Assembly: GCF_028748065.1 (NCBI RefSeq)
Contig: NZ_CP118166.1
Location: forward strand, 3,363,501 to 3,427,500
Reading direction: 5' to 3'
DNA length: 64,000 nt
Origin: Hyphococcus flavus
GTDB lineage: Bacteria > Pseudomonadota > Alphaproteobacteria > Caulobacterales > Parvularculaceae
Under the pieces are notes generated by a model. It ran no database searches. It saw only the letters and a program-made list of their open reading frames with translations, and had not been told where the DNA came from. This document shows positions 26,076-40,751 of this stretch, piece by piece (position 1 is the stretch's first letter; the number at the start of each line of letters is the position of its first letter). Both the position numbers and the translations under genes were made by a program.

Positions 26076-27042
26076 CAGTACGTCGCCAGAGATCGCCGCG
26101 TTCCGTCAAGGGCGCTGACCCTTTTGAGATAGATTGCACTGCGCCGGACGCTGCGCCAGAAACAGCCAGAAACACTTTACGGTGCGTTGAGACCACCGTC
26201 CTGTTCTCCCATGCCGCCTCACCGCGTGCAGCAACTTTGCGTCCGATATCACGGTAAACATTTCGGGCTGCCAGTACCGCTGCAGAAGCACGAAGCGGCA
26301 AAAACCGCACCCCTTCACTGGCAGAGTCATAATATCGATCTGCGATCGCCAACACTTGTTTTACGACGCGCGTAAGCCCTGCTCTGTTGGTTTCGTGCAT
26401 GATGGCGGAAGGGTCGGCAGAAATGTTTTCCGCTTCGAGCCAACTAGTGGGCAAATAAATACGCCCGCCTCGGGCGTCATCAAATACGTCTCGACAAATG
26501 TTTGTAAGCTGAAAGGCAAGACCAAGATCACAAGCTCGATCAAGCACTTCACCATCGTCCTTACTCACGCCCATTATAATAGCCATCATGATCCCGACGA
26601 CGCCAGCAACGCCGTAGCAATATTCCATCAAGTCATCGAACGAAGTAAACTCTCGCTGGTCAACATCGTTTGCAAACCCATCAAGCAAATCAAGCGGGTA
26701 CCGCTCAGGCAAGTCATGACGCCGGGCAACAAGCGAAAACCCATCAAAAGCCGGCGTACCGGTAAGATCACCGCTAAAGGCCGTCCTTGTTTTAGCGCGC
26801 AACTCATCAAGCCGTTCAGCCATTTCTTTTCGGGACAATGTTCTGTCCGGCGCATCACCGCCCAGCTCTTGGCCATCGATCACATCATCGCAATACCGGC
26901 ACCATGCATAAAGCATATGCACATCGGACTGCATTGCTTTTCCAAACAATAGCGAGGCGATTGCAAAACTTTTTGAGCCCTTGGCGATCGTCTGCGCGCC
27001 GTGTGACGCAAGCGCGCTTTCGTTGAGTTGCATACTTGTCAC
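26056..27042 (-). CDS. crtB: phytoene synthase
   Basis: Joins two geranylgeranyl diphosphates to 15-cis-phytoene, the first committed carotenoid step. The 328-residue squalene/phytoene synthase fold shows the Asp-rich WCRYCDDVID and the second NICRDVFDDARGGRIYLP. The GTG start at 27042 overlaps the crtI stop in GTGA, so translation is coupled; an ATG three codons later (27033) is an alternative. Last gene of the crtY-crtI-crtB operon. Confidence 0.95.
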   Translation of the reverse strand: MTSMQLNESALASHGAQTIAKGSKSFAIASLLFGKAMQSDVHMLYAWCRYCDDVIDGQELGGDAPDRTLSRKEMAERLDELRAKTRTAFSGDLTGTPAFDGFSLVARRHDLPERYPLDLLDGFANDVDQREFTSFDDLMEYCYGVAGVVGIMMAIIMGVSKDDGEVLDRACDLGLAFQLTNICRDVFDDARGGRIYLPTSWLEAENISADPSAIMHETNRAGLTRVVKQVLAIADRYYDSASEGVRFLPLRASAAVLAARNVYRDIGRKVAARGEAAWENRTVVSTHRKVFLAVSGAASGAVQSISKGSAPLTERGDLWRRTVMERVR

Positions 27043-28544
27043 TGCGCAGCTTTCGGAGATGCAAAAACGTCTTCAAGCATGAGTCCGGCTGTCGCTTTGG
27101 CGGAACCCACAACTCCAGGAACGCCTGCTCCCGGATGAGTTCCAGCGCCAACAAAATAGAGATTAGGAATCTTGTCATCACGGTTGTGGATACGGAAAAA
27201 TGCTGACTGGGTCAGAATAGGCTCAATTGAAAAGGCAGACCCGGCATGTGCGTTCAAGTGGGTTTCAAAGTCAGCAGGCGTGAAGATATGGCTTGTCACC
27301 AGATCAGCACGCAGATCCGGAATGTAACGCTTCTCCAGATAGTCAAAGATTCGATCCCGGTATTTCGGTCCCTCAGCTGACCAATCGATATCTGCCTTTT
27401 CCAGATTTGGCACGGGCGCAAGTGCATAAAATGCAGAACACCCTTCAGGAGCCAGCTTCGGGTCGGTTTTTGTCGGCATGTGCAGATAAAGTGAAAAATC
27501 ATCAGGCAGGTCAGGACCAGAAAAAATTTCTGAAATCAACTCCCTATACCTTGGCCCGAATAATATTGAATGATGCGCCAAGTGTTTATGTTTGTGGTTA
27601 TTTTTCAGTCCGAAATACGCCACAAACAATGAGTTTGAAAATCGTTTCTTTTTTAGAGATCGCCCTTTTGACTGACCGCGCCTGTCATTCCGCAGTAATG
27701 TATCGTAGGTATGGACGATATCAGCGTTCGACGCGATCATATCAAAACGTTCACGGACGCCATTTTCCAAAATTATTTCTTCAACCCGGCCATCGTGCGT
27801 TGTGATTTCGTTTACTGGCGCGTTCAGGCGTATAACGCCACCCAGATCGCTAAAAAGCCTTGCCAGACCTGATACAAGGGCGCCGGTCCCGCCACGTGGA
27901 AACCAGACGCCCCACTTGCGTTCAAGCGCATGTATCAATGCGTAGATTGACGATGTTTTGAATGGATCGCCCCCCACTAGCAACGTGTGAAAGCTAAACG
28001 CCTGACGCAATTGCGGGTCTTTGATAAAATCAGACAATCTACCGTAAACGCTCCGGAAACTTTGCAACTGTGTCAGTTGCGGCGCCACACGCACCATGGA
28101 CCAGAAATTCAAAAACGGGACGGCGCCAAGCTTTTCATAGCCTTCACGGAATACGGCTTCCGAAAACTCGTAGAATTTTTTGTAGCCCTCAAGATCGTCA
28201 GGGTTCTTCTGTTCTATTTGGTCATAAAGGCGCGTTTCATCGCTGCAGTAATCAAACGAGTAACCATCCTCCCAGCACAGCCGGTAAAATGGATCGACAT
28301 TGATCATCTCGACGTAGTCAGACAGTTTCCGGCCCGATAGCGCGAATAATTCTTCCAGCGCTGAAGGATCGGTGATGACCGTGGGACCTGCATCAAACGT
28401 GAAGCCGTCTTTGCGAAACACATAAGCTCGTCCGCCTGGCATGTCGCGTTTTTCATAGAGCGTTGTTTGCACTCCTGCCGACTGCAAGCGGATCGCCAGC
28501 GCCAGACCGCCAAATCCTGAACCAATCACTGCGGCCTTTTTCAT
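27039..28544 (-). CDS. crtI: phytoene desaturase (phytoene to lycopene)
   Basis: FAD-dependent desaturase, 501 residues, that carries phytoene to lycopene. N-terminal dinucleotide fold IGSGFGGLALAIRLQ, then EKRDMPGGRAYVF; C-terminal carotenoid-desaturase signature NLYFVGAGTHPGAGVPGVVGSAK. Overlaps crtY upstream (ATGA) and crtB downstream (GTGA), a tightly coupled operon. The number of desaturation steps (four for lycopene, given the cyclase next door) is inferred. Confidence 0.96.
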   Translation of the reverse strand: MKKAAVIGSGFGGLALAIRLQSAGVQTTLYEKRDMPGGRAYVFRKDGFTFDAGPTVITDPSALEELFALSGRKLSDYVEMINVDPFYRLCWEDGYSFDYCSDETRLYDQIEQKNPDDLEGYKKFYEFSEAVFREGYEKLGAVPFLNFWSMVRVAPQLTQLQSFRSVYGRLSDFIKDPQLRQAFSFHTLLVGGDPFKTSSIYALIHALERKWGVWFPRGGTGALVSGLARLFSDLGGVIRLNAPVNEITTHDGRVEEIILENGVRERFDMIASNADIVHTYDTLLRNDRRGQSKGRSLKKKRFSNSLFVAYFGLKNNHKHKHLAHHSILFGPRYRELISEIFSGPDLPDDFSLYLHMPTKTDPKLAPEGCSAFYALAPVPNLEKADIDWSAEGPKYRDRIFDYLEKRYIPDLRADLVTSHIFTPADFETHLNAHAGSAFSIEPILTQSAFFRIHNRDDKIPNLYFVGAGTHPGAGVPGVVGSAKATAGLMLEDVFASPKAAQ

Positions 28545-29734
28545 GGACTCACTCTTTTTGTTTCGGTTTCAAACACGCTTGATTCACTCAACACTTTAAT
28601 CGCACTAGAGATAGGTACGGGAGGTTTGCCTGCAAGGACGCGCAATTTATCGGACACGGTCGACCCTCCTGCATAAAACCTCTCTATCAGACCTTGCGGA
28701 AGCTTATAAAATCTCTCGAGTACTCGATAGCGCTGGTCTGGCGCGGCCGCGCGGAAAAGCATTCGCGATAAAAGGCGATAAAACGAACGTTTACGCCACA
28801 TTTCCAGCGAGAACGTCTTTGTCAGCTCATAAAGCGATGTTGCAGACAGATCCTTCGCGTGTGCGATCTTAAGCGCGAGGGCCGCCGCATCCGGTAAGGA
28901 ATACCCGGTCAATGGGTGAAAAAGCCCTGCGCGCATACCAGCGCGTGGAACTAGGCCCGCAAGGTCCGGCCCAGGTTCATTCCAGAACCCTTCAATATCG
29001 CCAGCAAGGGCTATCGGCAGGACCCCTTTTTCTTCGCGCAGGATATTTTTAATCCTCCAACCATTGGTTTGCGCATAGTCTGTAATGGCTTGGCGCAAAT
29101 CTTTTTCGGCGAGGCTTGGCCCGTCTGAATATCGTGTGTCTTCTATCAGCGCGGTGCTCTCATCAAACGGCAAAACGTATAAAAAGCGATAGCCATCAAC
29201 CTGCGGCACTGTCGCATCCATGATGATCGGACAGTCAAGCCGATGCGGTGTTGTTAGCTCAACCACTTGTCCGATAAATTTCTGGTAGCCAAGCTGTATA
29301 TGAGCGCTTCGTTGACCTCCTCTGCAATCAATGACTGCATCTGCGTCCAGGTCATTCCCATCCTGAAACCCGACACGTTGTGGCAAAACCATGGTGACAG
29401 CACGATTTAACTCAACGCAGCCCTTTAGGGATTCCATTATCACCGTATGAAACTTTTCTGACGTGATCGAATTATACTGTGTGGATAGCTGCCTTGAATG
29501 CGCCGGAAACCGGACCTGCTGTTCACGCCATAGATAGCTGATTAGCGGTTTAACAAGAGCATGCCCCTCATCACTAAGATCGGGACCATGGAAAGACCAA
29601 GTATGGGCGCCGCCAAGCTTGCTGCCAGCCTCTATTAACTTGATGTTGATTTCAGGCCGGGCTTTCCGCAATGCCAGCGCCACTAGACCGCCCGCCAGTC
29701 CGCCGCCGACTATTGCAATATTCGTTTGTGACAT
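28541..29734 (-). CDS. crtY: lycopene beta-cyclase
   Basis: Closes beta rings on lycopene to form beta-carotene. CrtY-type enzyme of about 397 residues with the FAD fold IVGGGLAGGLVALALRK, GGAHTWSFHG, the LPFDESTALIEDTRYSD block and GLFHPLTGYSLPDA. I start at ATG 29734, preceded by GGGAG; the longer frame begins at 29755. First gene of the minus-strand carotenoid operon and divergent from the hydroxylase gene at 29801. Confidence 0.94.
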   Translation of the reverse strand: MSQTNIAIVGGGLAGGLVALALRKARPEINIKLIEAGSKLGGAHTWSFHGPDLSDEGHALVKPLISYLWREQQVRFPAHSRQLSTQYNSITSEKFHTVIMESLKGCVELNRAVTMVLPQRVGFQDGNDLDADAVIDCRGGQRSAHIQLGYQKFIGQVVELTTPHRLDCPIIMDATVPQVDGYRFLYVLPFDESTALIEDTRYSDGPSLAEKDLRQAITDYAQTNGWRIKNILREEKGVLPIALAGDIEGFWNEPGPDLAGLVPRAGMRAGLFHPLTGYSLPDAAALALKIAHAKDLSATSLYELTKTFSLEMWRKRSFYRLLSRMLFRAAAPDQRYRVLERFYKLPQGLIERFYAGGSTVSDKLRVLAGKPPVPISSAIKVLSESSVFETETKRVSP

Positions 29735-29800
29735 GAACTCCCGATCTCGCGTCATGCTGGCAACTATGGCAGATTAGCAGATTATGGACGATCATAGCGC

Positions 29801-30583
29801 ATGAATTTCTTCAATATCGATACGCTTGGCGGATTCGCCGCAACGTATGGTGCTTTGACTGTGCTCATCTGGGCTCGTTATTTTGTCATTGCGGGGCTTT
29901 TTTACTGGTTGCTATGGGGGCGACCCGAGGAAAAAGTTCATGCGGTGCGATTGTCGGAGAAACGACCAACGCGGGACACTGTAGCTTTCGAAATCAAGAT
30001 GTCGCTGTTGTCGTCCTTGATTTATGCTGCGCCCGGAACGGTCGTTATCGAAGCGTACAAAGCGGGCGGCACACAAATCTACACCAATATAGATTCTGTG
30101 TTTGCGTGGGCTTGGATACCATTCTCAATATTAATTTATCTTGTAATTCACGACACGTACTTCTATTGGACCCACCGCGCGATGCATGATCCCAAACTGT
30201 TTCGCGCCGTGCACCTCGCGCATCATCGGTCCCGACACCCAACACCGTGGGCGGGATTTTCCTTTCACCCATGGGAATCAATCATTAGTGCATGGCCGCT
30301 GCCGTTGGCGACTTTCTTTATTCCGATACATATCGGCGCTGTCGCTTTCCTGCTTGTGGTAATGACCGTCGCGGCAATTACCAATCACGCCGGCTGGGAA
30401 ATCCTGCCTCAAAAACTTGTTCGCAGCGCCGTGGGAAAGCATATTATTTCCGCCACACACCACAACCTTCATCACACGGACTATAACGCCAACTATGGGC
30501 TTTACTTCCGTTTTTGGGACAAGGTCATGAAAACGGATAAAGGGCTGGCGAAAGCACAGCCAGCCAAGTCAGAAAGCGTTTAG
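29801..30583 (+). CDS. sterol desaturase / fatty-acid hydroxylase family enzyme
   Basis: Integral membrane di-iron oxygenase of 260 residues. The His clusters are complete: HDTYFYWTHRAMH, HLAHHRSRHP and HHNLHHTDYN, between hydrophobic segments. It is divergent from crtY, with 66 bases between starts, so it probably acts on carotenoids. A 2,2'-hydroxylase (CrtG-like) making caloxanthin or nostoxanthin from zeaxanthin is possible; it is not a CrtW ketolase by its motif spacing. A role on hopanoids or lipids cannot be excluded. Confidence 0.78.
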   Translation: MNFFNIDTLGGFAATYGALTVLIWARYFVIAGLFYWLLWGRPEEKVHAVRLSEKRPTRDTVAFEIKMSLLSSLIYAAPGTVVIEAYKAGGTQIYTNIDSVFAWAWIPFSILIYLVIHDTYFYWTHRAMHDPKLFRAVHLAHHRSRHPTPWAGFSFHPWESIISAWPLPLATFFIPIHIGAVAFLLVVMTVAAITNHAGWEILPQKLVRSAVGKHIISATHHNLHHTDYNANYGLYFRFWDKVMKTDKGLAKAQPAKSESV

Positions 30584-30610: not shown

Positions 30611-31858
30611 TTAGTTAATTCCGCCGAGAATAACGTGTTGAACAGCAGCGTATGAGGTTAATGCAGCCGCCCGGTTCACGCCCATCTGATGCACAAAATT
30701 CGGCACTGTTACATTTACGTCTACTTGTGTTTTGATGACTTGATTATCAAGCGTGTTGTTCAACACTGTCAAAATCCCTTGTGTGCCAACCCGTTGAATA
30801 ACTTCCGGATCAGTCACCTGGGCAAGAGTAGCAGACATGCTTGACTCGCTTTGCCCAGTTTGCGGGGTCGGTGTTTTTGTTTCCACGCTATATTGGCTGT
30901 AGATTTCGCCCCCATCAAAATTATTAGAGTTACCGCCAGATGGTGCAGAATTATCGGCAACAGTGATTGTTTCCTGTCCGCCTGATGGTGATGGATCGTT
31001 CTGGGGCTTTGGATTGGCTCCGTAGGCCATTCCATCATTGATGCTTGTGGTTGGGGTGTTGTTCACTGGCGTGCTGGTTTGAGCAGAACCGCCAGATGCA
31101 GAAGCTACAGTCGTAGTATCAGTGGCTCCAGTACTTGGCGCCGTGTTTGTTGCCGGCACTGTATTTTCAACAACCGTGATTACGCCAGCGTCGGTAGGAA
31201 GTTGTGTTGTCGGTGCAGTTTGATTCGAAACAGTCTGACTAGGTTCTGGTGTCGCAGCCACAGTTGCTGGTGCAGGCGCATTTGGCGTTGGCTGCGTTGT
31301 TGTTGGCGTTACCGTTGTTGTTACTACTGGTGGTTGGCTGGGGGTATTAGTCGTTGCTGCTTGCTGCGTGGAGGAAGCAGCAGGCTGAGGATTATTAGCC
31401 GGTGGCGGCGTTGATTGGGTACTATTTGATCCGGTTGTTGCCGGGGCGGACTGTTGACCTGCACCGGCAGAAGGACCGTCATTGCCAAATACGCCGCCTG
31501 GACCGAATACGCCGCCATCATCAATTGGCCCGCCATCGTCACCAAAAACGCCGCCTTCGCCAAAAGGACCGCCATCATCGCCAAAAACGCTGCCGCTATC
31601 GCCAAAGGGACCGTTTGGAAGCGGATTGATGCTCGGGGGCGTTACGGTCACGCCGATATTGAAAACAAATCCGCCAACCTGAAACCCGCCGCGTGCTTCG
31701 CTCAATTCTGTAGAAGAAAGCGGTGCTTCATTTAATTCCAGAAGATCACCGGAGAATAAATCATCCTCAACGGCGTCCATCGTTTCAGCCATAGCAGTGT
31801 TAAATGCTGCCAGACTGATTGCTCCTGTAATCGAAAATGTTTTTTTCAAATTCATCAT
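30611..31858 (-). CDS. secreted Thr/Pro/Asn-rich protein with double-glycine propeptide
   Basis: Unknown family, 415 residues. Signal peptide to AMA-E (residues 1-24). An acidic propeptide follows and ends in LSSTELSEARGG (residues 47-58), an exact fit to the double-glycine leader pattern (Leu-12, Ser-11, Glu-8, Leu-7, Gly-2, Gly-1). Then come a glycine-rich FGDDGG region (about 86-125), a long Thr/Pro/Ala/Asn low-complexity part, and a C-terminal domain with GILTVLNNT...VDVNV, shared with the small protein at 32641-33054. No cysteines. It overlaps the C39 peptidase stop by one base (TAATG). Probably a minor fibre or tip component; inferred. Confidence 0.72.
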   Translation of the reverse strand: MMNLKKTFSITGAISLAAFNTAMAETMDAVEDDLFSGDLLELNEAPLSSTELSEARGGFQVGGFVFNIGVTVTPPSINPLPNGPFGDSGSVFGDDGGPFGEGGVFGDDGGPIDDGGVFGPGGVFGNDGPSAGAGQQSAPATTGSNSTQSTPPPANNPQPAASSTQQAATTNTPSQPPVVTTTVTPTTTQPTPNAPAPATVAATPEPSQTVSNQTAPTTQLPTDAGVITVVENTVPATNTAPSTGATDTTTVASASGGSAQTSTPVNNTPTTSINDGMAYGANPKPQNDPSPSGGQETITVADNSAPSGGNSNNFDGGEIYSQYSVETKTPTPQTGQSESSMSATLAQVTDPEVIQRVGTQGILTVLNNTLDNQVIKTQVDVNVTVPNFVHQMGVNRAAALTSYAAVQHVILGGIN

Positions 31859-32631
31859 TATGGGCTCTCCACGAGCGTTCCAATAGAAATTCCAGAAAAA
31901 GACGGGCGGGTTTGATGTAAATGAAGCGATTGCAACGATTCATCATCCCTGGCCCGGTCGTATGGTGAGGTTGGCGTCAAACGCCAGTCAGCAACACGGT
32001 TGAAGTTGGCCTTACCGACCAGCACTTCCGACCGGATAAACAGGATCGTTCCATCCCAACGCTCTTCAAAAATGTGGCGCGGCATCGAAGTGACGCCCGT
32101 TGATGGATCACCGACGAGTACGACGCGGTCCGTAATTCCTTTGACCACGACAAAGTGCTTGTAGCCGCGGACATCGACCAATGCGATTCCGGGAACGCCG
32201 ATTTCCTGGACCCTGTCGAGCGTCAGGCTGAAACCATCTGCTTTAAGATTGATGCTTTCAAGATACCGTTTCATCTCAAGCAGGGAAAACCCCAACTCCC
32301 GGATACGGTTCTGGTCGCCAACATCCCACATAGCCTGGAACGCATCCGTTTCCGTCGTGGGACGTTGATAGTGGTGTGTCAGCAACGTTGCGAGCGCTGC
32401 CGAACCGCAACTGAAATCATATTGCTGGCGTACAACAGTCGAAAATTTTCGCTCCACCATGCTGGCGACTTTAATGCGCGCCATGGCGCCGCCAGAATTC
32501 ACAAGAAGGTCGCTAGCAAGTGCAGGCGTAGGCGCGCCTAGAGAAGCTGCGAAACAAGCCGAAATCAGCGGCGCCGCCAAAAGACTGCGCCAGCCGTACC
32601 GGTTGGGTTTATTTCGCGCTGTCTCCCCCAT
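31858..32631 (-). CDS. periplasmic C39-family cysteine peptidase (FapD-like)
   Basis: A 257-residue peptidase with a long basic N terminus and signal peptide (to about residue 40, TPALAS), so it works in the periplasm rather than as part of an ABC transporter. The papain-like triad is visible: Cys75 in YDFSCGSAAL with oxyanion-hole Gln69 or Gln70, His159 in YKHFVVV and Asp175 in GDPSTG. C39 domains cut after double-glycine leaders; both neighbouring secreted proteins carry such leaders. Free-standing periplasmic C39 peptidases are known as FapD in Pseudomonas amyloid operons. AGGA precedes the ATG; the gap from the upstream gene is 9 bases. Confidence 0.88.
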   Translation of the reverse strand: MGETARNKPNRYGWRSLLAAPLISACFAASLGAPTPALASDLLVNSGGAMARIKVASMVERKFSTVVRQQYDFSCGSAALATLLTHHYQRPTTETDAFQAMWDVGDQNRIRELGFSLLEMKRYLESINLKADGFSLTLDRVQEIGVPGIALVDVRGYKHFVVVKGITDRVVLVGDPSTGVTSMPRHIFEERWDGTILFIRSEVLVGKANFNRVADWRLTPTSPYDRARDDESLQSLHLHQTRPSFSGISIGTLVESP

Positions 32632-32640
32632 GCGTGTCCT

Positions 32641-33054
32641 TTACTGAGGCCCTGCCGCGCCAAGGAAAATGTTTACGTTGACGACGCTTTGCATAACGAC
32701 GCCATTGCCTGTGTTGTTGAAAACGGTCGTGATGCCGCCATTGTCGCTAATCATGTTGTTAGCGATTTGACCGTTGGTGGAATTGTTTGTCGTCACGCCT
32801 TCAACAGTGCCGGTATTTTCACCGACATTAGCGCCTAAATTGGCGATATCTATCGCAGTTTGGGAACCACCTGACGCAGACGCCATTGCGGTTTCATCAA
32901 GAGAGGCGAGATCACCAAAAATATCAGTTTGAAGCTCGGCGGGCGCAGACATCATGTGAGACGCTAACTGCTCTTCGCGCGTTGCGTCGTCAATTGTCGG
33001 ATCAGCTGCGATAAGAACGGGAGTAATAAAAAACCCCCACGCGCTCATACCCAT
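32641..33054 (-). CDS. small secreted protein with double-glycine propeptide
   Basis: Unknown family, 137 residues. The N terminus is short and hydrophobic (residues 4-17) but lacks positive charge, a weak export signal. An acidic propeptide ends in LDETAMASASGG (residues 52-63), with Leu-12, Met-7, Ala-4 and Gly-2/Gly-1 of the double-glycine leader. Cleavage would release 74 residues rich in Asn, Gly, Thr and Val, ending with GGITTVFNNTGNG...VVNVNI, the strand motif shared with its neighbours. It resembles in size and position an amyloid nucleator (FapB-like); this is inference. AGGGGG lies 6 bases before the ATG. Confidence 0.7.
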   Translation of the reverse strand: MGMSAWGFFITPVLIAADPTIDDATREEQLASHMMSAPAELQTDIFGDLASLDETAMASASGGSQTAIDIANLGANVGENTGTVEGVTTNNSTNGQIANNMISDNGGITTVFNNTGNGVVMQSVVNVNIFLGAAGPQ

Positions 33055-33164
33055 TTCAGTCCCCCTAACTCAGTTTGTAACAGCGCCAATACACGCGCCC
33101 CACAAACCATCTTTACTAAATTACTCATCAAACCCTGATTCAGAAAGTTATCGTTTGTTAATAA

Positions 33165-33192
33165 CGGCGCTGCAGGAAACCCTGCAGCGCCG
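33165..33192. terminator. 12-base stem-loop behind the repeat-protein gene
   Basis: CGGCGCTGCAGG, loop AAAC, CCTGCAGCGCCG: a perfect 12-base stem 18 bases beyond the minus-strand stop at 33210. Only short T-runs follow, so termination may be partial. That would give more mRNA for the major protein than for the downstream secretion genes. Confidence 0.7.
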
Positions 33193-33209
33193 CCGGTAAA
33201 AGAACCGTA

Positions 33210-35201
33210 CTAGTTGTTGTTCACAGTACCGATATTCACGTTCTGCGAGTTCGAGAACGTGCCGTTGCCGGTATTGCTGTTGTTGATGGTCAAGCCACGG
33301 TTGTTGTTCATCGTCTGGTTGTTGATGTTGCCTGTTGAGACAGGGCCAGAACCAGGGATGGTACCCATGTTGACGTTGCTGACAGAAGAAGACAGCTCAG
33401 TTGAGTTCAGCTGAACATCACCGATCCGCAACTCAAGCGTAACGTTGTTTGAATCGTTGACCGAGTTGTCTGAGTTGTTCGAGTTGTCAGAGTTGTCGAT
33501 CGTGACAGAACCGCTGTCGTTAGCAACAGCACCGCCGTCGCCGGTCGAGTTGTTGTCGGAAGCATCGATTTCAACGTTGACGTCAGTGTTGCCTGAGTCG
33601 TTGATCGAGTTATCCGAGTTATCGGAGTTATCCGAATTGTCGGAGCTATCCGAAGAAATAGCGACCGAGCCGTCATTGGCCGATGCGCCATTGTCGCCGG
33701 AAGATGCTTCGTCACTAGCGTCAACTGCAATGTCGGTATTGCCCGAATCATTGATCGAGTTGTCCGAGTTGTCCGAGTTGTCTGAATTGTCTGAGTTATC
33801 AGAGTTGTCGGAGTTGTCGGAGTTGTCGATTGACGAACCGTTATTCGCAGAACCGTTGTCGGCGCTGGAATTGTCGTTTCCGCTGTCATTGACATCCAGA
33901 TCGAGAACATCGCTGTCCTCGCCAGTGAACGCTTCGACGTTGTTCGAGTCGTTCGTAGAGTTGTCGGAATTGTCCGAGTTATCTGAATTGTCGTTTGCAG
34001 TAACGGCTACAGAGCCGTCGTTTGCAGCAGATGACTGGTTGTCAGCAGCGTTGTTGTCGCTGGCGTCAACCGCAACGTCGGTGTTACCCGAATCGCTGAT
34101 GTTGCCCGAATCGTTGATCGAGTTATCAGAGTTATCGGAGTTGTCCGAATTGTCGTTGCCCGAATCCTGAATGTTCAGGTCCGTGTTACCCGAGTCGTTG
34201 ATCGAGTTATCGGAGTTGTCCGAGTTGTCCGAGTTGTCGTTGCCGCTGTCGGAAACGTCAAGATCGAGCACATCAGAGTCGTCGCCCGTGAAAGCTTCGG
34301 TGTTGCCCGAATCATTCGTGGAGCTGTCCGAATTGTCATTTGAAGTAACAGCTACAGAACCGTCGTTTGCGGTCGAGCCGTTATCGCCTGACGAGTTGTC
34401 GTCGCTAGCGTCGACAGCAAGGTCCAGATTACCCGAATCGTTGATCGAATTATCTGAGTTGTCGGAATTATCGGAGTTATCCGAGTTATCCGAGTTGTCA
34501 TTGCCGCTGTCGGCTACGTCAACGTCGAGAACATCGCTGTCGTCGCCTGTGAAGGCGTCAACATCGGCATTGCCGGAGTCGTTGATCGAATTATCGGAAT
34601 TGTCCGAGTTGTCCGAATTGTCGTTGCCGTTGTCCTGAACGTCTACATCGAGACCGTCATTGTCTGATCCGTCGCCAGAGAAAGCGTCGACATCAGCATT
34701 GCCGGAGTCGTTGATGGAGTTGTCAGAGTTATCAGAGTTGTCGGAATTGTCCGAATTGTCTGAGTTGTCGTTGCCAGAATCGTCAACATCAATAACGTCG
34801 CTGTCGTCGCCTGTGAAGGCGTCTACATCGGCGTTGTTCGAGTCATTCGTCGAATTGTCGGAATTATCCGAGTTGTCCGAATTATCGTTGTTGTTGTCCT
34901 GAATGTCAGCGTCGATGCCGTCAGCATCGTCACCCTGGAACGCATCAACGTCAGCATTACCCGAGTCATTGACCGAGTTGTCTGAGTTGTTCGAGCTGTC
35001 GTTGTTGCTGTTGGATGTATTGTCGTTCAGGTTGTTGCTGAGAATGTCAGCATCAACAACGTCGTCGTCAGTCGTGTTGGACTGATCGCCGTCGCCGGTC
35101 TCCTGATCGCCAATGCCAGACTCGGAAGGTTGCGCCCATGCACTACCTGCCGAAACGAGCAACGCAGAAGCTGCGATCGTTGTTAAAAGCTTCAATTTCA
35201 C
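33210..35201 (-). CDS. giant Asn/Asp/Ser-repeat secreted protein (candidate major fibre subunit)
   Basis: A 663-residue protein with a clear signal peptide (KLKLLTTIAASALLVSAGSAWA). The mature part has about 11 modules, each starting with NDNSDNSDNSDNS and INDSGNTD, followed by either a DAFTGDDSDVLDLDV segment or a VAVDASDNNSSGDNG segment. It is extremely acidic, lacks Cys, and has almost no aromatic residues. The last 60 residues differ: LNSTELSSSVSN, then GLTINNSNTGNG...QNVNIG, the end motif of the two smaller secreted proteins. GTG start at 35201 is supported by GGGAG 7 bases upstream; no site supports 35234. A sigma-54 promoter lies about 120 bases upstream. Confidence 0.78.
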   Translation of the reverse strand: MKLKLLTTIAASALLVSAGSAWAQPSESGIGDQETGDGDQSNTTDDDVVDADILSNNLNDNTSNSNNDSSNNSDNSVNDSGNADVDAFQGDDADGIDADIQDNNNDNSDNSDNSDNSTNDSNNADVDAFTGDDSDVIDVDDSGNDNSDNSDNSDNSDNSDNSINDSGNADVDAFSGDGSDNDGLDVDVQDNGNDNSDNSDNSDNSINDSGNADVDAFTGDDSDVLDVDVADSGNDNSDNSDNSDNSDNSDNSINDSGNLDLAVDASDDNSSGDNGSTANDGSVAVTSNDNSDSSTNDSGNTEAFTGDDSDVLDLDVSDSGNDNSDNSDNSDNSINDSGNTDLNIQDSGNDNSDNSDNSDNSINDSGNISDSGNTDVAVDASDNNAADNQSSAANDGSVAVTANDNSDNSDNSDNSTNDSNNVEAFTGEDSDVLDLDVNDSGNDNSSADNGSANNGSSIDNSDNSDNSDNSDNSDNSDNSDNSINDSGNTDIAVDASDEASSGDNGASANDGSVAISSDSSDNSDNSDNSDNSINDSGNTDVNVEIDASDNNSTGDGGAVANDSGSVTIDNSDNSNNSDNSVNDSNNVTLELRIGDVQLNSTELSSSVSNVNMGTIPGSGPVSTGNINNQTMNNNRGLTINNSNTGNGTFSNSQNVNIGTVNNN
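33440..35000 (-). repeat. array of 9-base tandem repeats coding Asp-Asn-Ser
   Basis: Runs of degenerate 9-base units (plus-strand form GAGTTGTCC, with GAGTTATCG and GAATTGTCT variants) encode the DNS repeats. Third codon positions vary while the protein stays constant, so selection on the protein keeps the repeat. The complementary strand shows long open frames of Glu-Leu-Ser repeats, which are shadows. Confidence 0.85.
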
Positions 35202-35322
35202 TTGTCGTCTCCCACTTTGAGTTTCAACTAACAATGTGCGTCCCGCCCTCTCCGGTACTCCTTGGAGTAGAGCGCGATCACACAGCTGGGAGTACGTGTC
35301 CCCCCCAACGCATTAACTATTT

Positions 35323-35450: not shown

Positions 35451-35515
35451 TTCAGTCTGTCAGCCAAGTGTTGAGTCCGCTAGGCGCCCGCTTCGTTAAT
35501 GCATCGATCAGGAGC

Positions 35516-35532
35516 AGGTGTTGGTAACACCT
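35516..35532. promoter_or_regulatory. candidate activator site between the two sigma-54 promoters
   Basis: AGGTGTT-GGT-AACACCT is a perfect 7-base dyad 80 bases upstream of the plus-strand sigma-54 promoter and about 180 bases upstream of the minus-strand one, the usual distance for an enhancer bound by a sigma-54 activator. Confidence 0.4.
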
Positions 35533-35611
35533 TGTTTGACCACCGCTTTGGATCAACCGGATACGTTGTCAGACGCCCAATTGCACCTGCTTCAATTCCG
35601 GCGTTTAATTC

Positions 35612-35626
35612 TGGCTTTAAGGTTGC
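35612..35626 (+). promoter_or_regulatory. sigma-54 promoter for the trypsin-like protease gene
   Basis: TGGCTT-TAAGG-TTGC keeps the invariant GG and GC with exactly 10 bases between and an intact TTGC; two positions differ from the TGGCAC box. Transcription would start near 35638, 26 bases before the ATG at 35664, which also argues against the longer open frame from 35499. Confidence 0.72.
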
Positions 35627-35663
35627 AAGGTCTTGGGGAAATGGTGGTTTCAGGAACAGGTCA

Positions 35664-37466
35664 ATGGGGGAAAATCAACTAGGCGGTGTATTGGGTCGAT
35701 ACCTGACAGCGATTGTTATCATCGCCGGCATCGCCTTGTTCATCAGTATTGAAACCGCGCGATATGCGGAAATTCGCCGCCTGCGTTCGGCAACGAATAC
35801 CCTTCAGGAAGATATTCAACGCGCGAATGAAAAGGCGGACGCCGCGCTTTCAGCTATTATTTCGCCTGAAACGCTCTCTTCTGCGCAGTCTTCGGTCTAT
35901 CTCATCGTCGTCAATGGATCAGCGCGTGGGACGGCTTTTGTCCTCGATAGAGACAAAGGCTTGCTGGTCACCGCAGCTCACGTCGCCAGCGAGTTGCCGC
36001 TGCAAGATGAAAACGCCTCAGTTTATATCCTTAACAGAAGCACGAAGGTTGCGATGAAAGTGCAAACCGTTCGGTTGCATGCTGGCTACGGTGCGTTTCG
36101 AACCCTGGTGGAGGATTATCAGCCTATCCGGAAAAACTCTTCCATCTATGCGCCTCAGGCAGCGCCTTTGCGCGATTTGGCCTTTGACGCTGCATTCATA
36201 ACGGTCGATAGCGCCGATGCCGAGACTGGCGAAAATCTGTTGGGTCCAAACTTCAGTTTGGCGCCTGAAGACCATCTTCTCGGTCTTGAGCCAGGCGCGC
36301 CAATCGCCGTTATTGGTTATCCCTACGACACCCTTGATGACGGTTTTGCCCCCGATTCTGCGATTCCCAGAATTGAACGCGGGGTGATTTCCGCCATAAC
36401 GCCGCCGCTCGATAATGTCGCCGAGGCCCAAAATCCGGTCACTGCGAATCTGATTATTCATCGCCTCTCTACGGCTGGCGGCAGCAGTGGAAGCCCGATC
36501 ATCAATGCAGCAGGAGAAGTTATCGGCATTCACACGCACGGAATCGAATCGGCGAGTTCCAATGCTGATGGCGCGGCGCAACGCGCCGAAGTGATCCTGG
36601 ACCTTTTCTCGTCAGATCGTGAAACTGACAGGCTAAACGAAGTTTTCTATCCGTCATGGCGGCGTCTTCTCTCCTATTGGGCCCGCGCGGAGGATAGTTT
36701 GCCGTGGTCGTTCTACATGGAGTACGCGCGACCGGACGAAACACCGCCGCCGCAAGTTCGTGAGTTCCAGATTGACAATTCGACGCCGTTCACTCGCGAC
36801 TTAATCCGGCAGGACTTCGAACCGGAAACAGAAACAAAACGCGTTGAAGCCAGTGATATTGATCTCGCCAAGATCAGTGATGAAGACGGCGACACCGGGA
36901 AACTGCGAGAAAGTTCGAGCTTCTTGCTGAACGAAAAGGGCGAATATGCCGAGCTCTGGCGCAGTGTTGACCGTAGCAGAGAAAACGTACTGTTCGCTTT
37001 TGATTACTCGCTTCGCTCAAAGCGCGGTTATTGCCCACTGAAAACCTATTGGCGCAAAAAGGGCGAAACCCGGCTTCAAGCGACACCGTTTCGCGCCTCC
37101 TTTGAACTGCATCTTCCCCCCACCCAAGAAGCGAACACCGAAGAATATCATATTGTTATACAGCGCCCAGCGGGCTGCGATCCGATCAGTAAAGAGTTCT
37201 TTTTCGGCAGCATTTCGTGGACTGGCGCCGAAGATCCGCTGACCACTGCCTCGCTCTCATCTAACCAAACCTCTCGTAACGAGGATGCGAAACATGAGTT
37301 TTATTCGAGGGTTTCTGAGGTTCAGAGCAGAATTGGCAAATTTATCAAATGCTTGCCGCCGATAAATGACGCAACGTCAGGCTGCACGGCGCCTGAATAT
37401 GTTGAATTGGCAAGCCGCGAAGACATGGCGCGCTACTTGCTCACTCAGTCTCAAAACGAAAACTAG
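35664..37466 (+). CDS. membrane-anchored trypsin-like serine protease
   Basis: A 600-residue protein with one N-terminal transmembrane helix (about residues 14-31), a short coiled coil (about 35-65) and a periplasmic trypsin-like domain. The triad is visible: His in GLLVTAAHVA, Asp in DLAFDAAFITVD, Ser in STAGGSSGSPI. The C-terminal 230 residues contain several Cys and no PDZ domain, unlike DegP/DegS; I do not recognise them. It is the first gene on the plus side of the fibre locus and has its own sigma-54 promoter, so it is probably co-regulated with secretion, for processing or quality control. Start chosen at 35664 by promoter position and AGGAACAGG upstream. Confidence 0.82.
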   Translation: MGENQLGGVLGRYLTAIVIIAGIALFISIETARYAEIRRLRSATNTLQEDIQRANEKADAALSAIISPETLSSAQSSVYLIVVNGSARGTAFVLDRDKGLLVTAAHVASELPLQDENASVYILNRSTKVAMKVQTVRLHAGYGAFRTLVEDYQPIRKNSSIYAPQAAPLRDLAFDAAFITVDSADAETGENLLGPNFSLAPEDHLLGLEPGAPIAVIGYPYDTLDDGFAPDSAIPRIERGVISAITPPLDNVAEAQNPVTANLIIHRLSTAGGSSGSPIINAAGEVIGIHTHGIESASSNADGAAQRAEVILDLFSSDRETDRLNEVFYPSWRRLLSYWARAEDSLPWSFYMEYARPDETPPPQVREFQIDNSTPFTRDLIRQDFEPETETKRVEASDIDLAKISDEDGDTGKLRESSSFLLNEKGEYAELWRSVDRSRENVLFAFDYSLRSKRGYCPLKTYWRKKGETRLQATPFRASFELHLPPTQEANTEEYHIVIQRPAGCDPISKEFFFGSISWTGAEDPLTTASLSSNQTSRNEDAKHEFYSRVSEVQSRIGKFIKCLPPINDATSGCTAPEYVELASREDMARYLLTQSQNEN

Positions 37467-37760
37467 AAGAAGGTTTTAAGCCGAACGCGTGTGCTCTCCC
37501 TTCGGGTACAATCCAAGGAAGAAAAAATGGCGAAAATAGCCGACTATTTTTGCTCAACAGCGGGATTCTTGTTGATTATTCCGGGCATTGTTCTAGCTTG
37601 CCCGAACGCAAAAGCGTTGTTGTGGTGTGGGAAAATACGTTGTCGCTGGTGGGCGGCGCGGGTGGCTGTGGGACCCGCCTCTTTTAGAGGCGAAAACTTA
37701 AGCCTGCTTTCCAAAATCCCGTTCTGCATTTGACGCGCCTGCATGCTTTGGGGGAAGCGA
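37467..37760 (+). other. gap between protease and regulator genes
   Basis: Contains a short open frame starting at 37527 after AAGGAAG (68 codons, one hydrophobic segment, several Cys) that I cannot support as a gene, and a small stem-loop CGCCTC-TTTTA-GAGGCG near 37676-37692. No convincing sigma-54 site is present. Confidence 0.4.
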
Positions 37761-38957
37761 ATGGACGATAACGATCACGACGGCCAAGGCCGAAATTCTA
37801 CATTCGACAGCGAATTCCCGAATGCGGGTTTTTCCCATTCTGTCTATTCGCCGTCAGGAAACGGCTATTCGGACGCCCCCGGTTCCGGTGCGCGTCAATC
37901 GAGCTTTATCAACCTGAAAAAAGTGTCTTCCGAGCGAAAGAACCGGAACACCGCCCGGCGTCCGGAACCCGGCCCGATCATTGGATCGAGCGCCGCAGCC
38001 GAAAAGCTGCGCGAAACTATCGCTCTTTATGCCGACAATGACGCGCCGGTGCTAATCACCGGAGAGACGGGTGTCGGCAAGGAACTGGTTGCGCGCCACC
38101 TTCATACGCAAAGCCGACGCGGTTCAGATCCCTTTTCTCCTTTAAATGCTGGCGCAGTACCTGAAACCCTTGCCGCATCAGAACTGTTCGGCCACTCTCG
38201 AGGCGCATTTACAGGCGCTATCGCCGAACGCGAAGGGGCGATTTCGCTCGCGAATGGCGGTGTCTTGTTTCTCGACGAGATCGGTGAAATGCCGCTTTCG
38301 ATTCAGACACACCTACTGCGCGTTCTGGAAGACGGCCTCGTCACAAAAGTCGGCGGAAAATCAGCGACAAAAACCGACTTCCGTTTGATTTCAGCGACGA
38401 ACGTACCGTTAAGCCAGCATGTTCAGGAAAAGAAGTTTCGTCGCGACCTGTATTATCGAATCAATGTCCTGTCCATTGACGTGCCGCCGCTACGCGCCCG
38501 CGCACATGACGCGGCTGAAATCGCCGAATCGTTCGTCGCCAGCTACGCGAAGGCTCAAGACAGGAAGATTACGCTATCTCCGAAAGCTTCGGATAAGCTT
38601 CTTACCCACGCCTATCCAGGCAACGTTCGTGAATTACGTAACGTCCTCGCACGTGCTGTCGTACATGCCATTGATGGGAAAATTCTACCCGAGCATATCG
38701 TGTTCGATCATGACTGCAGTTCGGCGACTGTGGAAAATACTGTGTTCGATATCGACGATGCAAAGAACCTTGTAAGCCGTTTTGTCATGATGAGGGCATT
38801 GCATATAAGCGATGGAAACGTCACTAAGGCGGCCGCACTGACGGGCCGGTCTAGAGGCACGTTCCACACTTTGAAAAAAAGCATTAAAGGTGATGACTTC
38901 GACGCCGCTTACCATCAGGTTTGCATAGACGTAAAAGCGCTGATCGATGGATGCTAA
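37761..38957 (+). CDS. sigma-54-dependent activator without receiver domain
   Basis: A 398-residue enhancer-binding protein that drives open-complex formation by sigma-54 polymerase. The AAA+ domain (about residues 72-300) has Walker A GETGVGKE, the sigma-54 contact loop GAFTGA, Walker B LFLDEIGE and the arginine-finger region [12 protein letters not shown]. The C terminus carries a Fis-type helix-turn-helix ([22 protein letters not shown], in part). The first 70 residues are low-complexity, with no receiver, GAF or PAS domain, so activity is probably set by a partner or by abundance, as in PspF. Start at 37761 follows GGGGGAAG. The OM-protein gene starts 18 bases after its stop. Confidence 0.93.
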
Positions 38958-38975
38958 ACGCCCATGGGGGAGAAT

Positions 38976-40751
38976 ATGAAAGTAAAGTTGTTATGCAATG
39001 CAGCCGCTATCGTTTTTGCTGGAACGGTCGCTGGCTCAGCTTATGCAAATCAGGACCCTTCGGTTAGCGATACGCCGGCTGGCGGCACGCAAATCCTCCC
39101 CAAGCCGTCAGTTGAAGAAGATCTCGTCTATCTCAAAGATATCGTTGCTTTGCAGACAATCCGGCTCGATGAAGCCGAAGAGCTGATTGAAAAGCAAAAT
39201 GCGTTGATCGAAGCGCAGGCACAGCAGTTACAAGCCCTGAATGCCGCAATGACGGCTATGGGCCAGTCCCCAGCTATGGCGGCGGCTGGAATGGGCGGTT
39301 CATATCGCGTTCAGTCCGGCGATACGCTTAGCGCGATTGCCCGCCGAAATAACACGACAGTCGCCGCACTTGCGGAAGCAAACAATCTGCGCGCGCCCTA
39401 CCCTCTCCGCGTTGGCGATACGCTGGCCGTGCCGGGCGCAGCTCCTGTTGCACAAACCCGCGTTGCGGCGGCGCCATCGACGCCGCCTCAACAGGCGCCG
39501 GCAAAAACTGCAAACAACACTGCACAACAATCCAGCACTGCGCAAAGTCAGGCCCAATCGCAATCGTCAACGCCGCAACCGACCCGCGTTGCTAGCAACA
39601 CGACGAGCGGCGGACAGAACAACGATCCACAAAATGAAGCGCTTCCCCAAGAAGTCGGCGTGCGCCCGGAAGACGAGAACGAACGTCCCTATCTGGCGAT
39701 ATTCTCTGACATTGGCGGCATTCTAACCCCCAAGGGCTCGCTATATCTCGAACCTGCTATCGATCACACAGTAACGTCAGACAATCGCTTCTTCTTCCAG
39801 GGAATTGAAATCGTCGACGCTGTCCTGATCGGCGCGATCGAGGCGACAGACAGTGACAGGCGTGCGCTGACGGAGAGCCTTGGTTTCCGTTATGGTCTGA
39901 CCAACCGAATGGAAATTGACGGACGCTTTTCATACGTCTCTCGAAAAGACCGCGTAACCGGCGTCGCTATTGACGATACGACGGCCACGACCCGCGATAT
40001 CGGCGGATATGGTTGGGGCGATGCTGAAATCGGCCTTCACTACCAGCTCAATAATGGCGTGAAGTTTCCATACACAGTTGCGAACGTCAGGGTAAAGGCG
40101 CCAACAGGCGAAGGTCCGTTTGAAGTCGATCGCAACCTTAATTCAGGCATCGAAACTGAATTGGCGGTCGGTTCCGGGTTCTGGACTGTTGAACCTAGCT
40201 TGACCTTTATCCTCGCGAGCGATCCTGCATCGCTTTATGCGAATATCGGATATCAGATGAACATGCCAACCTCACCTAACCAGGTGCTGGTTGATACATT
40301 CCCAGGCATGCAAGCAGGCACGACCCTAATACGGCAAACGTTGCAAGAGTTCGATCCTGGCGATGCTTTGCGAACGAGCATCGGCGTCGGGCTTTCGCTT
40401 AATGAGCGCTTGTCCCTGAACTTCGGTTATGACCAGAGCTATTTCTTCCGGTCCTCAACTGACTTTGAGTTTATTACAAGCGAGCCGGTTTTGTTGCCGG
40501 ATGACGGCGATCCCGATACGCCGCGCGTGCAAGACCGCGACCCAATGACTAACGCCCTTATTTTTGAGGATCCGGTTACAACGCTGCGGCGGACACAAAC
40601 ATCGACTGCGACTGTCGGGTCATTCCTGTTTGGCGGCTCCTACGCTGTGAACGACAGCCTGCGAATCAACCTGAACGGCGCCATCGGCGCCACGGACGAG
40701 GCGCCAGATGCACGGATTTCAATTCGTGCGCAGTACCGCCTGTTCGATTAA
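38976..40751 (+). CDS. outer-membrane beta-barrel with coiled coil and LysM domain (FapF-like)
   Basis: A 591-residue envelope protein. A signal peptide (to GSAYA-N) is followed by a coiled-coil stretch LVYLKDIVALQTIRLDEAEE to about residue 92, a LysM peptidoglycan-binding domain (YRVQSGDTLSAIARRN... to about 150), a Gln/Ser/Thr linker, and from about residue 240 a C-terminal barrel of alternating strands ending in QYRLF. FapF of Pseudomonas, the amyloid exporter, has a periplasmic coiled coil plus a barrel; the LysM insert is an addition that would fix the pore to the cell wall. Start at 38976 follows GGGGGAG. It forms an operon with the sigma-54 activator. Confidence 0.8.
   Translation: MKVKLLCNAAAIVFAGTVAGSAYANQDPSVSDTPAGGTQILPKPSVEEDLVYLKDIVALQTIRLDEAEELIEKQNALIEAQAQQLQALNAAMTAMGQSPAMAAAGMGGSYRVQSGDTLSAIARRNNTTVAALAEANNLRAPYPLRVGDTLAVPGAAPVAQTRVAAAPSTPPQQAPAKTANNTAQQSSTAQSQAQSQSSTPQPTRVASNTTSGGQNNDPQNEALPQEVGVRPEDENERPYLAIFSDIGGILTPKGSLYLEPAIDHTVTSDNRFFFQGIEIVDAVLIGAIEATDSDRRALTESLGFRYGLTNRMEIDGRFSYVSRKDRVTGVAIDDTTATTRDIGGYGWGDAEIGLHYQLNNGVKFPYTVANVRVKAPTGEGPFEVDRNLNSGIETELAVGSGFWTVEPSLTFILASDPASLYANIGYQMNMPTSPNQVLVDTFPGMQAGTTLIRQTLQEFDPGDALRTSIGVGLSLNERLSLNFGYDQSYFFRSSTDFEFITSEPVLLPDDGDPDTPRVQDRDPMTNALIFEDPVTTLRRTQTSTATVGSFLFGGSYAVNDSLRINLNGAIGATDEAPDARISIRAQYRLFD

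Follow-up and report, generated by a model that had tools for sequence, protein, structure and literature searches.

Double-glycine tags ordinarily mark small antibiotics for cutting within the cell. In a report on the transporter PCAT1, the rule by which C39 peptidases recognize such a tag is given as Leu at −12, Glu at −8, Leu at −7 and Gly at −2 and −1; the leader helix docks by positions −12 and −7, with Gly-Gly positioned at the catalytic Cys (PMC6959990). A Sec-exported C39 peptidase, FapD, is already known from the Pseudomonas Fap amyloid system (FapABCDEF). According to Rouse et al. 2017, Fap amyloid secretion requires FapD, and the FapD Cys38Ala exchange abolishes secretion of FapC; no canonical C39 site was seen, and the FapD substrate was called unclear and left open (PMC5557850). 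The same authors report peptides throughout FapA to FapD, taken as no processing, and none from the first ~70 residues of FapE, and they propose cleavage of FapF (PMC5557850). In other papers, colocalized fapD and fapF homologues were reported outside Pseudomonas and FapE was named as the likely FapD target (PMC6173800), FapE and FapF were "thought" to be FapD substrates in December 2025 (PMC12822426), and a double glycine in FapF was noted (PMC5135000). Here, a Fap-like locus is described in a stretch of 64,000 nucleotides of the Hyphococcus flavus genome (contig NZ_CP118166.1, positions 3,363,501 to 3,427,500, forward strand), called the window below. Two exported proteins adjoining a free C39 peptidase carry double-glycine leaders, which an earlier note on this DNA had read as leaders cut by that peptidase in the periplasm; the Fap-like identity of the locus had not been seen there. 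With a probability of about 80%, we propose that both proteins would be exported by Sec and then cut in the periplasm by the FapD-like peptidase, a step that would license their passage to a FapF-like channel.

Leader-bearing proteins, peptidase and channel

The open reading frames (ORFs) and positions given by the earlier note were recovered unchanged. On the minus strand, the order of transcription is repeat protein (33210-35234), 137-residue protein (32641-33054), C39 peptidase (31858-32631) and 415-residue protein (30611-31858). The spacing is tight, with a 9-base gap between the small-protein and peptidase genes and a 1-base overlap between the peptidase and larger-protein genes. The principal features are as follows.

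30611..31858, minus strand: larger exported protein, FapE-like, 415 residues, with signal peptide, propeptide, leader, G/P/T-rich middle and C-terminal domain.
31685..31720, minus strand: leader in the larger protein (LSSTELSEARGG, residues 47-58), with the cut predicted behind Gly58; supported by alignment and profile matches.
31858..32631, minus strand: free exported C39 peptidase, FapD-like, 257 residues; PF03412; NCBIfam C39_FapD; Gln69, Cys75, His159, Asp175.
32641..33054, minus strand: smaller exported protein, 137 residues; predicted mature part of 74 residues, Asn/Gly-rich.
32866..32901, minus strand: leader in the smaller protein (LDETAMASASGG, residues 52-63), with the cut predicted behind Gly63; G62 and G63 invariant, M57 nearly so.
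38964..40751, plus strand: FapF-like outer-membrane channel, with signal, coiled-coil stretch (by eye), LysM domain and barrel.

The leader of the larger protein ends in Gly57-Gly58 and has Leu at −12, Glu at −8, Leu at −7, Arg at −3 and Gly at −2 and −1. That of the smaller protein ends in Gly62-Gly63 (counted from the start MGM), with Leu at −12, Met at −7 and Gly at −2 and −1. Both proteins have the hydrophobic −12 and −7 residues and the Gly-Gly of a double-glycine leader, and the two stretches described in the earlier note were present. The note had also proposed a shared D-(I/L)-F-x-G-D-L stretch, which the larger protein contains as DLFSGDL; the smaller has DIFGDL, one residue shorter. 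The Phe of the D-x-F stretch was invariant in 13/13 small proteins and kept in 8 of the 11 aligned larger ones. Ala24 of the larger protein, ahead of the predicted signal-peptide cut, was invariant in the alignment. No fold was obtained for the smaller protein, whose predicted model had a mean predicted local distance difference test score (pLDDT) of 49.8, and hhalign gave no homology between it and FapE (0.9%).

The peptidase matched Peptidase_C39 (Pfam PF03412, E 3.6e-21). By eye it has an N-terminal hydrophobic export signal, and its 257 residues hold a C39 domain only: the fusion to transmembrane and ATP-binding domains that defines peptidase-containing ATP-binding cassette (ABC) transporters was absent. 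These properties agree with the free C39 peptidase that the earlier note had placed beside both exported proteins. The best NCBIfam match was C39_FapD (E 2.5e-44) and the second FilB (112.6 bits, below its cut-off); because NCBIfam ranks FapD first, the peptidase is called FapD-like. As a Sec-exported C39 peptidase it corresponds to the FapD of a Fap system, though its 151 bits did not reach the equivalog cut-off of 330. Gln69, Cys75, His159 and Asp175 were kept in 96 to 97 of 97 relatives, the sole gap being L076, which is ended by its contig, and by sequence the catalytic site is intact. In the predicted fold, pLDDT was mostly >90 over approximately residues 80-210 and <50 at residues 65-70, which include Gln69. 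The best Protein Data Bank (PDB) matches of the model were the peptidase domains of PCAT1 and ComA, with LahT among the next; they include 6v9z and 6mpz, solved with substrate or leader bound. The signal of the peptidase holds ISAC (residues 23-26, window 32554-32565), a possible lipobox; a Cys is present in the peptidase signal of some relatives too, at no conserved position. A double-glycine bacteriocin with ABC-transporter export was considered for this locus and rejected, since the peptidase lacks the transporter part and both putative substrates bear export signals.

The channel matched NCBIfam FapF with 102.9 bits (E 1.6e-29), below the cut-off of 700, so that a FapF-type channel is linked to the fapD-like gene at a score under the curated threshold. 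Its LysM domain (PF01476, E 8.2e-16; residues 114-157, ~39303-39434) lies between coiled coil and barrel and suggests that the channel may grip peptidoglycan. A simple pattern found LysM also in the FapF-like proteins of L015, L016, L019 and L021.

Conservation and distribution of the leader

The earlier note had named loss of Gly-Gly among homologues as grounds for giving up its reading, and the homologues did not refute it. The small homologues kept it in 13/13 cases, with the Gly pair among 12 invariant alignment columns, and the larger ones in 11/13, with Gly-Ala in L019 and L023. In an alignment of 11 larger proteins, four of the seven invariant columns (L52, R56, G57, G58) fell inside the 12-residue leader, which has a chance of 2.9e-5 if invariant columns are randomly placed; L015 (contig end) and L023 were left out of this alignment, and the Ala of L019 was given a separate column.

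Searches of the genome itself (one contig, 3.47 Mb) were run with E values up to 5. The downstream-type profile matched one place, the larger protein of the window, and the upstream-type profile matched the small protein and gave, at E 2.4, one further match of 11 bits. The profiles contain the window's own leaders, and therefore the absence of other matches is the informative part. The leader-bearing proteins adjoin the only FapD-like gene found in this genome. Among 60 relatives, 12 encoded the peptidase. The small protein was present in 11 of these and in 0 of the other 48, and the large protein in 11 of the 12, with one marginal match outside (G058, E 5e-4, 34 positions). Since these profiles include sequences of the same genomes, it is the absence from relatives without peptidase that counts. 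In the twelfth genome with the peptidase (G031, L024), a FapE-like protein of its own with LSDKEMGELRGG was encoded; no upstream leader was found at this locus. The fit to the C39 rule, the confinement to neighbors of the peptidase and the absence from relatives without it support the earlier note's assignment of the leaders to the adjoining peptidase. The leaders are real, and the simplest reading is that they mark substrates of that enzyme.

The wider survey comprised 97 loci, mostly from Pseudomonadota: 12 wide loci from the 60 relatives, 75 from the best 80 of at least 574 relatives (L025-L028 and L030, whose genomes were already in the first set, were removed) and 10 Fap loci, defined by a match to the FapE model. 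In 97/97 loci, a leader was encoded by the gene immediately downstream of the peptidase gene. In 85 it was found by profile within 600 bp, 38 of these loci having supplied seeds, and in 12 by eye, in RGG, RGA, RAG, RGK or TGK forms. A 28-residue profile built from 37 distinct downstream leaders, excluding the window's family and Fap, found the larger protein of the window at 20.0 bits. When loci were clustered at 90% peptidase identity, −12 was hydrophobic and −7 was Leu or Met in all 79 clusters, and −3 was Arg in 74. Position −2 was Gly in 75 and Ala in 4, and −1 was Gly in 62, Lys in 9, Arg in 4, Ala in 3 and Thr in 1. At 50% identity the −12 and −7 residues held in 15/15 clusters, with Gly (14) or Ala (1) at −2 and Gly (12), Lys (2) or Arg (1) at −1. 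Glu was present at −8 in 58/97 downstream leaders, and the +1 residue was Phe or Tyr in 82/97. The pattern was present in 96/97 downstream precursors (the leader of L050 lay outside the searched range), compared with a mean of 6.2 after residue shuffling.

At ≥2.5 bits, 71/97 loci had a leader-bearing small protein upstream, 25 of these being seeds of the profile; matches in Fap loci (≤2.6 bits) were set aside as chance. All 71 had Leu or Met at −7, with Gly (62) or Ala (9) at −2. The pattern was present in 71/71 of these precursors compared with a mean of 7.0 after shuffling, in a set that was selected for having it. Of 313 further signal-bearing ORFs in these loci, 31 also had it, at least one of them being a second FapE.

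FapF-like genes accompanied the leaders. One lay within the locus stretch in 88/97 loci and, for three of the nine remaining (L014, L018, L045), elsewhere in the genome; all 18 genomes searched (12 peptidase-bearing relatives and 6 others) encoded FapF-like genes. In two loci the FapF-like protein (L089, 8066-9469; L090, 8102-9505) had the leader LSDDELGEARGG at the junction of coiled coil and barrel, and in L032, L034-L037, L050 and L102 a leader or R[GA]G was present at that junction; a FapF with a leader would itself be a substrate.

In some loci, the part ahead of the leader differed. By eye, leader and FapE-like domain followed a lipoprotein start (LSGC) and ~110 residues in L083 and L084, and a membrane helix and long coiled coil in L032, L034-L037, L050 and L102. 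The N-terminal part, up to the leader, is exchangeable, and what follows the leader has a common beginning, which is what cutting there would produce. This suggests that the cut would free the cargo from its lipid or membrane anchor.

The −2 residues of upstream and downstream leaders were compared in the 70 loci with both (L040, included in the clustered counts, was left out). Gly/Gly was found in 61 and Ala/Ala in 7; Ala was upstream only in 2 and downstream only in 0. A Fisher test on the joint change was rejected as evidence, because the seven Ala/Ala cases form one Halomonas clade (L065, L073, L088, L094, L099, L101, L104; peptidases 0.81-0.97 identical), and clustering at 80% left one such case against two discordant ones. 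The double Ala is probably a single event in Halomonas; its presence in both leaders is expected if one enzyme reads both. One further Ala/Ala case, L034, was noticed by reading.

The leader was also present in the Fap system. FapE carried it with RGR or RGK in 10/10 Fap loci, in six of which FapE scored above its curated cut-off, and aligned at the leader with the RGG proteins (hhalign, 95.9%, E 5.1e-9). RG[RK] in place of RGG may explain why Rouse et al. saw no canonical C39 site. FapA had a degenerate leader, LSDxD[FI]xx[VI]xSG, in 6/6 loci where it was found. The C-terminal domain of the larger protein matched that of 32 FapE-like downstream proteins from other lineages (hhalign, 97.2%, E 2.9e-11), and its family is linked to FapE through such hhalign intermediates.

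Proposed processing and alternative explanations

In the proposed mechanism, Sec would carry both proteins across the inner membrane and the signal peptides would be removed, each protein retaining a propeptide that ends in a C39 leader. The leader would dock on the FapD-like peptidase in the periplasm via its −12, −7 and −4 residues, and the peptidase would cut after Gly-Gly, at Gly58 of the larger and Gly63 of the smaller protein. Once cut, the FapE-like protein and the small protein, in their mature forms (74 residues for the latter), would be free to use the FapF-like channel and to join or anchor a fibre built from the repeat protein. Least certain are which bond is cut, given the variable −1 residue, and what physiological purpose the cut would serve.

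Several observations weigh against this mechanism or against its Fap-like setting. Both the FapD-like and the FapF-like score stay under the curated cut-offs. The larger protein had no NCBIfam match up to E 1, including the curated FapE model NF058559, and its family aligned directly with FapE only weakly and at the leader (51%, E 1.5e-4). The signal peptide of the smaller protein, MGMSAWGFFITPVLIAAD, has no Lys or Arg ahead of the hydrophobic stretch, which is unusual for Sec; Lys/Arg is present in the distant homologues of L031 and L029. No upstream leader was found in 26/97 loci, and the 71 that were found often had a non-Gly residue at −1 (Gly 35, Arg 29, Lys 5, Ala 2), unlike classical C39 sites. 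Neither FapB nor FapC showed a leader in the 10 Fap loci. The FapE region free of peptides, ~70 residues, is longer than the ~40 residues to the predicted site. Peptides throughout FapA speak against a cut in that protein, and a cut with both halves retained would look alike. In the literature, a figure legend has FapD modifying FapC (PMC10638192), and a review regards FapA and FapD as likely chaperones (PMC9268375). As the curated FapE model was unmatched and the fibre subunit was unrecognized by the libraries used, we regard the locus as Fap-like and not as a certified Fap member.

A cut one residue earlier, after −2 (RG|G, RG|R, RG|K or RA|G), is the strongest of the other explanations, if an unlikely one. 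It would place the mature N termini at Gly58 and Gly63, and it would account for −2 being Gly or Ala in all clusters while −1 varies among Gly, Lys, Arg, Ala and Thr (in FilA-like proteins, Gln or Arg). The PCAT1 account places Gly-Gly at the catalytic Cys (PMC6959990), which favors the cut after −1. The −12/−7 spacing, kept in all clusters, points the same way. We give little credence to a second proposal, that the leader is a docking tag by which the FapD-like protein would hold the precursors as a chaperone, like HlyB-type C39-like domains, with no cutting: inactive C39-like domains lose the Cys, and in this family Gln, Cys, His and Asp were kept in 96 to 97 of 97. Such inactive domains do exist, but the reported loss of secretion with FapD Cys38Ala argues for catalysis (PMC5557850). 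Marginally less credible still is that the conserved stretch would be a sorting signal for the FapF channel or a structural turn, with the peptidase acting elsewhere, for example on FapF. The leader or R[GA]G at the FapF junction (LSDDELGEARGG in L089 and L090; also L032, L034-L037, L050, L102) and the FapF cleavage proposed by Rouse et al. (PMC5557850) would fit it. The motif is, however, the C39 recognition motif and no generic turn, a leader-bearing FapF would be a substrate itself, and the FapF-like protein of the window showed no leader by eye or by simple pattern, just a GG that lacks the −12/−7 pattern.

Beyond periplasmic cutting in the window, we lean slightly towards a single wider reading. 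FapD, FapD-like and FilB proteins would be widespread second leader peptidases acting after Sec, whose cut licenses a FapF- or FilC-type channel; the substrate of FapD would be FapE, with LRG[RK] as its cleavage site and Arg or Lys accepted at −1. FapE, FapA (with a Ser-Gly end), FilA/DUF6160, the small proteins and sometimes FapF would share a degenerate leader, hydrophobic-x4-Leu/Met-x3-(R/T/S)-(G/A)-(G/R/K/Q), and in some lineages the cut would detach the cargo from a lipid or membrane anchor. The leader accompanies FapD-like peptidases across many Pseudomonadota and in a few further lineages; it points to candidate substrates and a candidate bond, and suggests what the unexplained FapD of bacterial amyloid fibres cuts. 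It further suggests a role for the double-glycine code beyond the cytoplasm, following Sec export, in the assembly of biofilm fibres. No report of the leader in FapE or in neighbors of FapD-like peptidases was found in the open literature searched, which excluded most subscription papers and all preprints.

Neighboring genes and comparison with described systems

Further features of the locus are listed here.

33164..33193, minus strand: perfect 13-bp RNA hairpin immediately 3' of the repeat-protein gene; −33.6 kcal/mol, z −6.06.
33210..35234, minus strand: Asp/Asn/Ser-repeat exported protein; start likely GTG near 35201 (VKLKLLTT..).
37743..38957, plus strand: sigma-54 activator, no receiver domain found; PF00158, E 9.5e-64; immediately precedes the FapF-like gene.

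The repeat protein is likely a fibre or matrix subunit. Tested as a FapB/FapC-type subunit, it had no Pfam or NCBIfam match, and no leader was seen in it; comparable repeat proteins lie upstream in L016, L017, L019-L022 and L031. It contains DNSDNS repeats and C-terminal Asn/Gly stretches, and because of the repeats the opposite strand is open over long frames. For the hairpin, 0/200 shuffles were equally good, and no T-run terminator was called there; it is possibly a stability element or a partial terminator ahead of the small-protein gene and might control how much fibre protein is made relative to the proteins encoded downstream. A Trypsin_2-type protease (Pfam) with one N-terminal hydrophobic segment by eye is encoded at 35499-37466, divergent from the operon. 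The genes at 27039-30583, lycopene cyclase (Pfam), phytoene desaturase (by eye) and a fatty-acid-hydroxylase-family gene, are ordinary carotenoid genes and a companion.

The Fil system, whose names (FilA DUF6160, FilB C39 peptidase, FilC) come from NCBIfam, was compared through FilB-type peptidases, which matched in 53/293 genomes, none above the cut-off; 12 loci were fetched. In nine of them (L158-L161, L164-L168), a FilA-like protein adjoining the peptidase had the leader geometry just after its signal, as [LM]xxxxLSx[VI]TG[QR] in eight loci and LxxxxLxxATGQ in one; no FilA-like gene was found in the flank examined of the other three. Two of the nine FilA-like proteins matched FilA in NCBIfam, below the cut-off, and one matched DUF6160 in Pfam.

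With PCAT1, ComA and LahT, the window peptidase shares the C39 fold, the catalytic residues and the leader rule of L−12, E−8, L−7, G−2 and G−1. It differs from them in having no ABC transporter part and in its putative substrates, which are exported precursors of 137 and 415 residues, and its cutting would be periplasmic. With Fil it shares a score of 112.6 bits to FilB and the leader geometry of FilA-like proteins; the comparison covered the leader stretch, which ends in TGQ or TGR in FilA-like proteins and in RGG in the window. The closest likeness is to Pseudomonas Fap, with its Sec-exported C39 peptidase, FapE neighbor and FapF channel, and with a leader in FapE right after the signal peptide. 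Compared with Fap, the window has GG where FapE has GR or GK, one more leader-bearing protein, a small one encoded immediately ahead of the peptidase, a D/N/S-repeat protein in place of FapB/FapC and a divergent channel gene with LysM, and its scores lie under the NCBIfam cut-offs.

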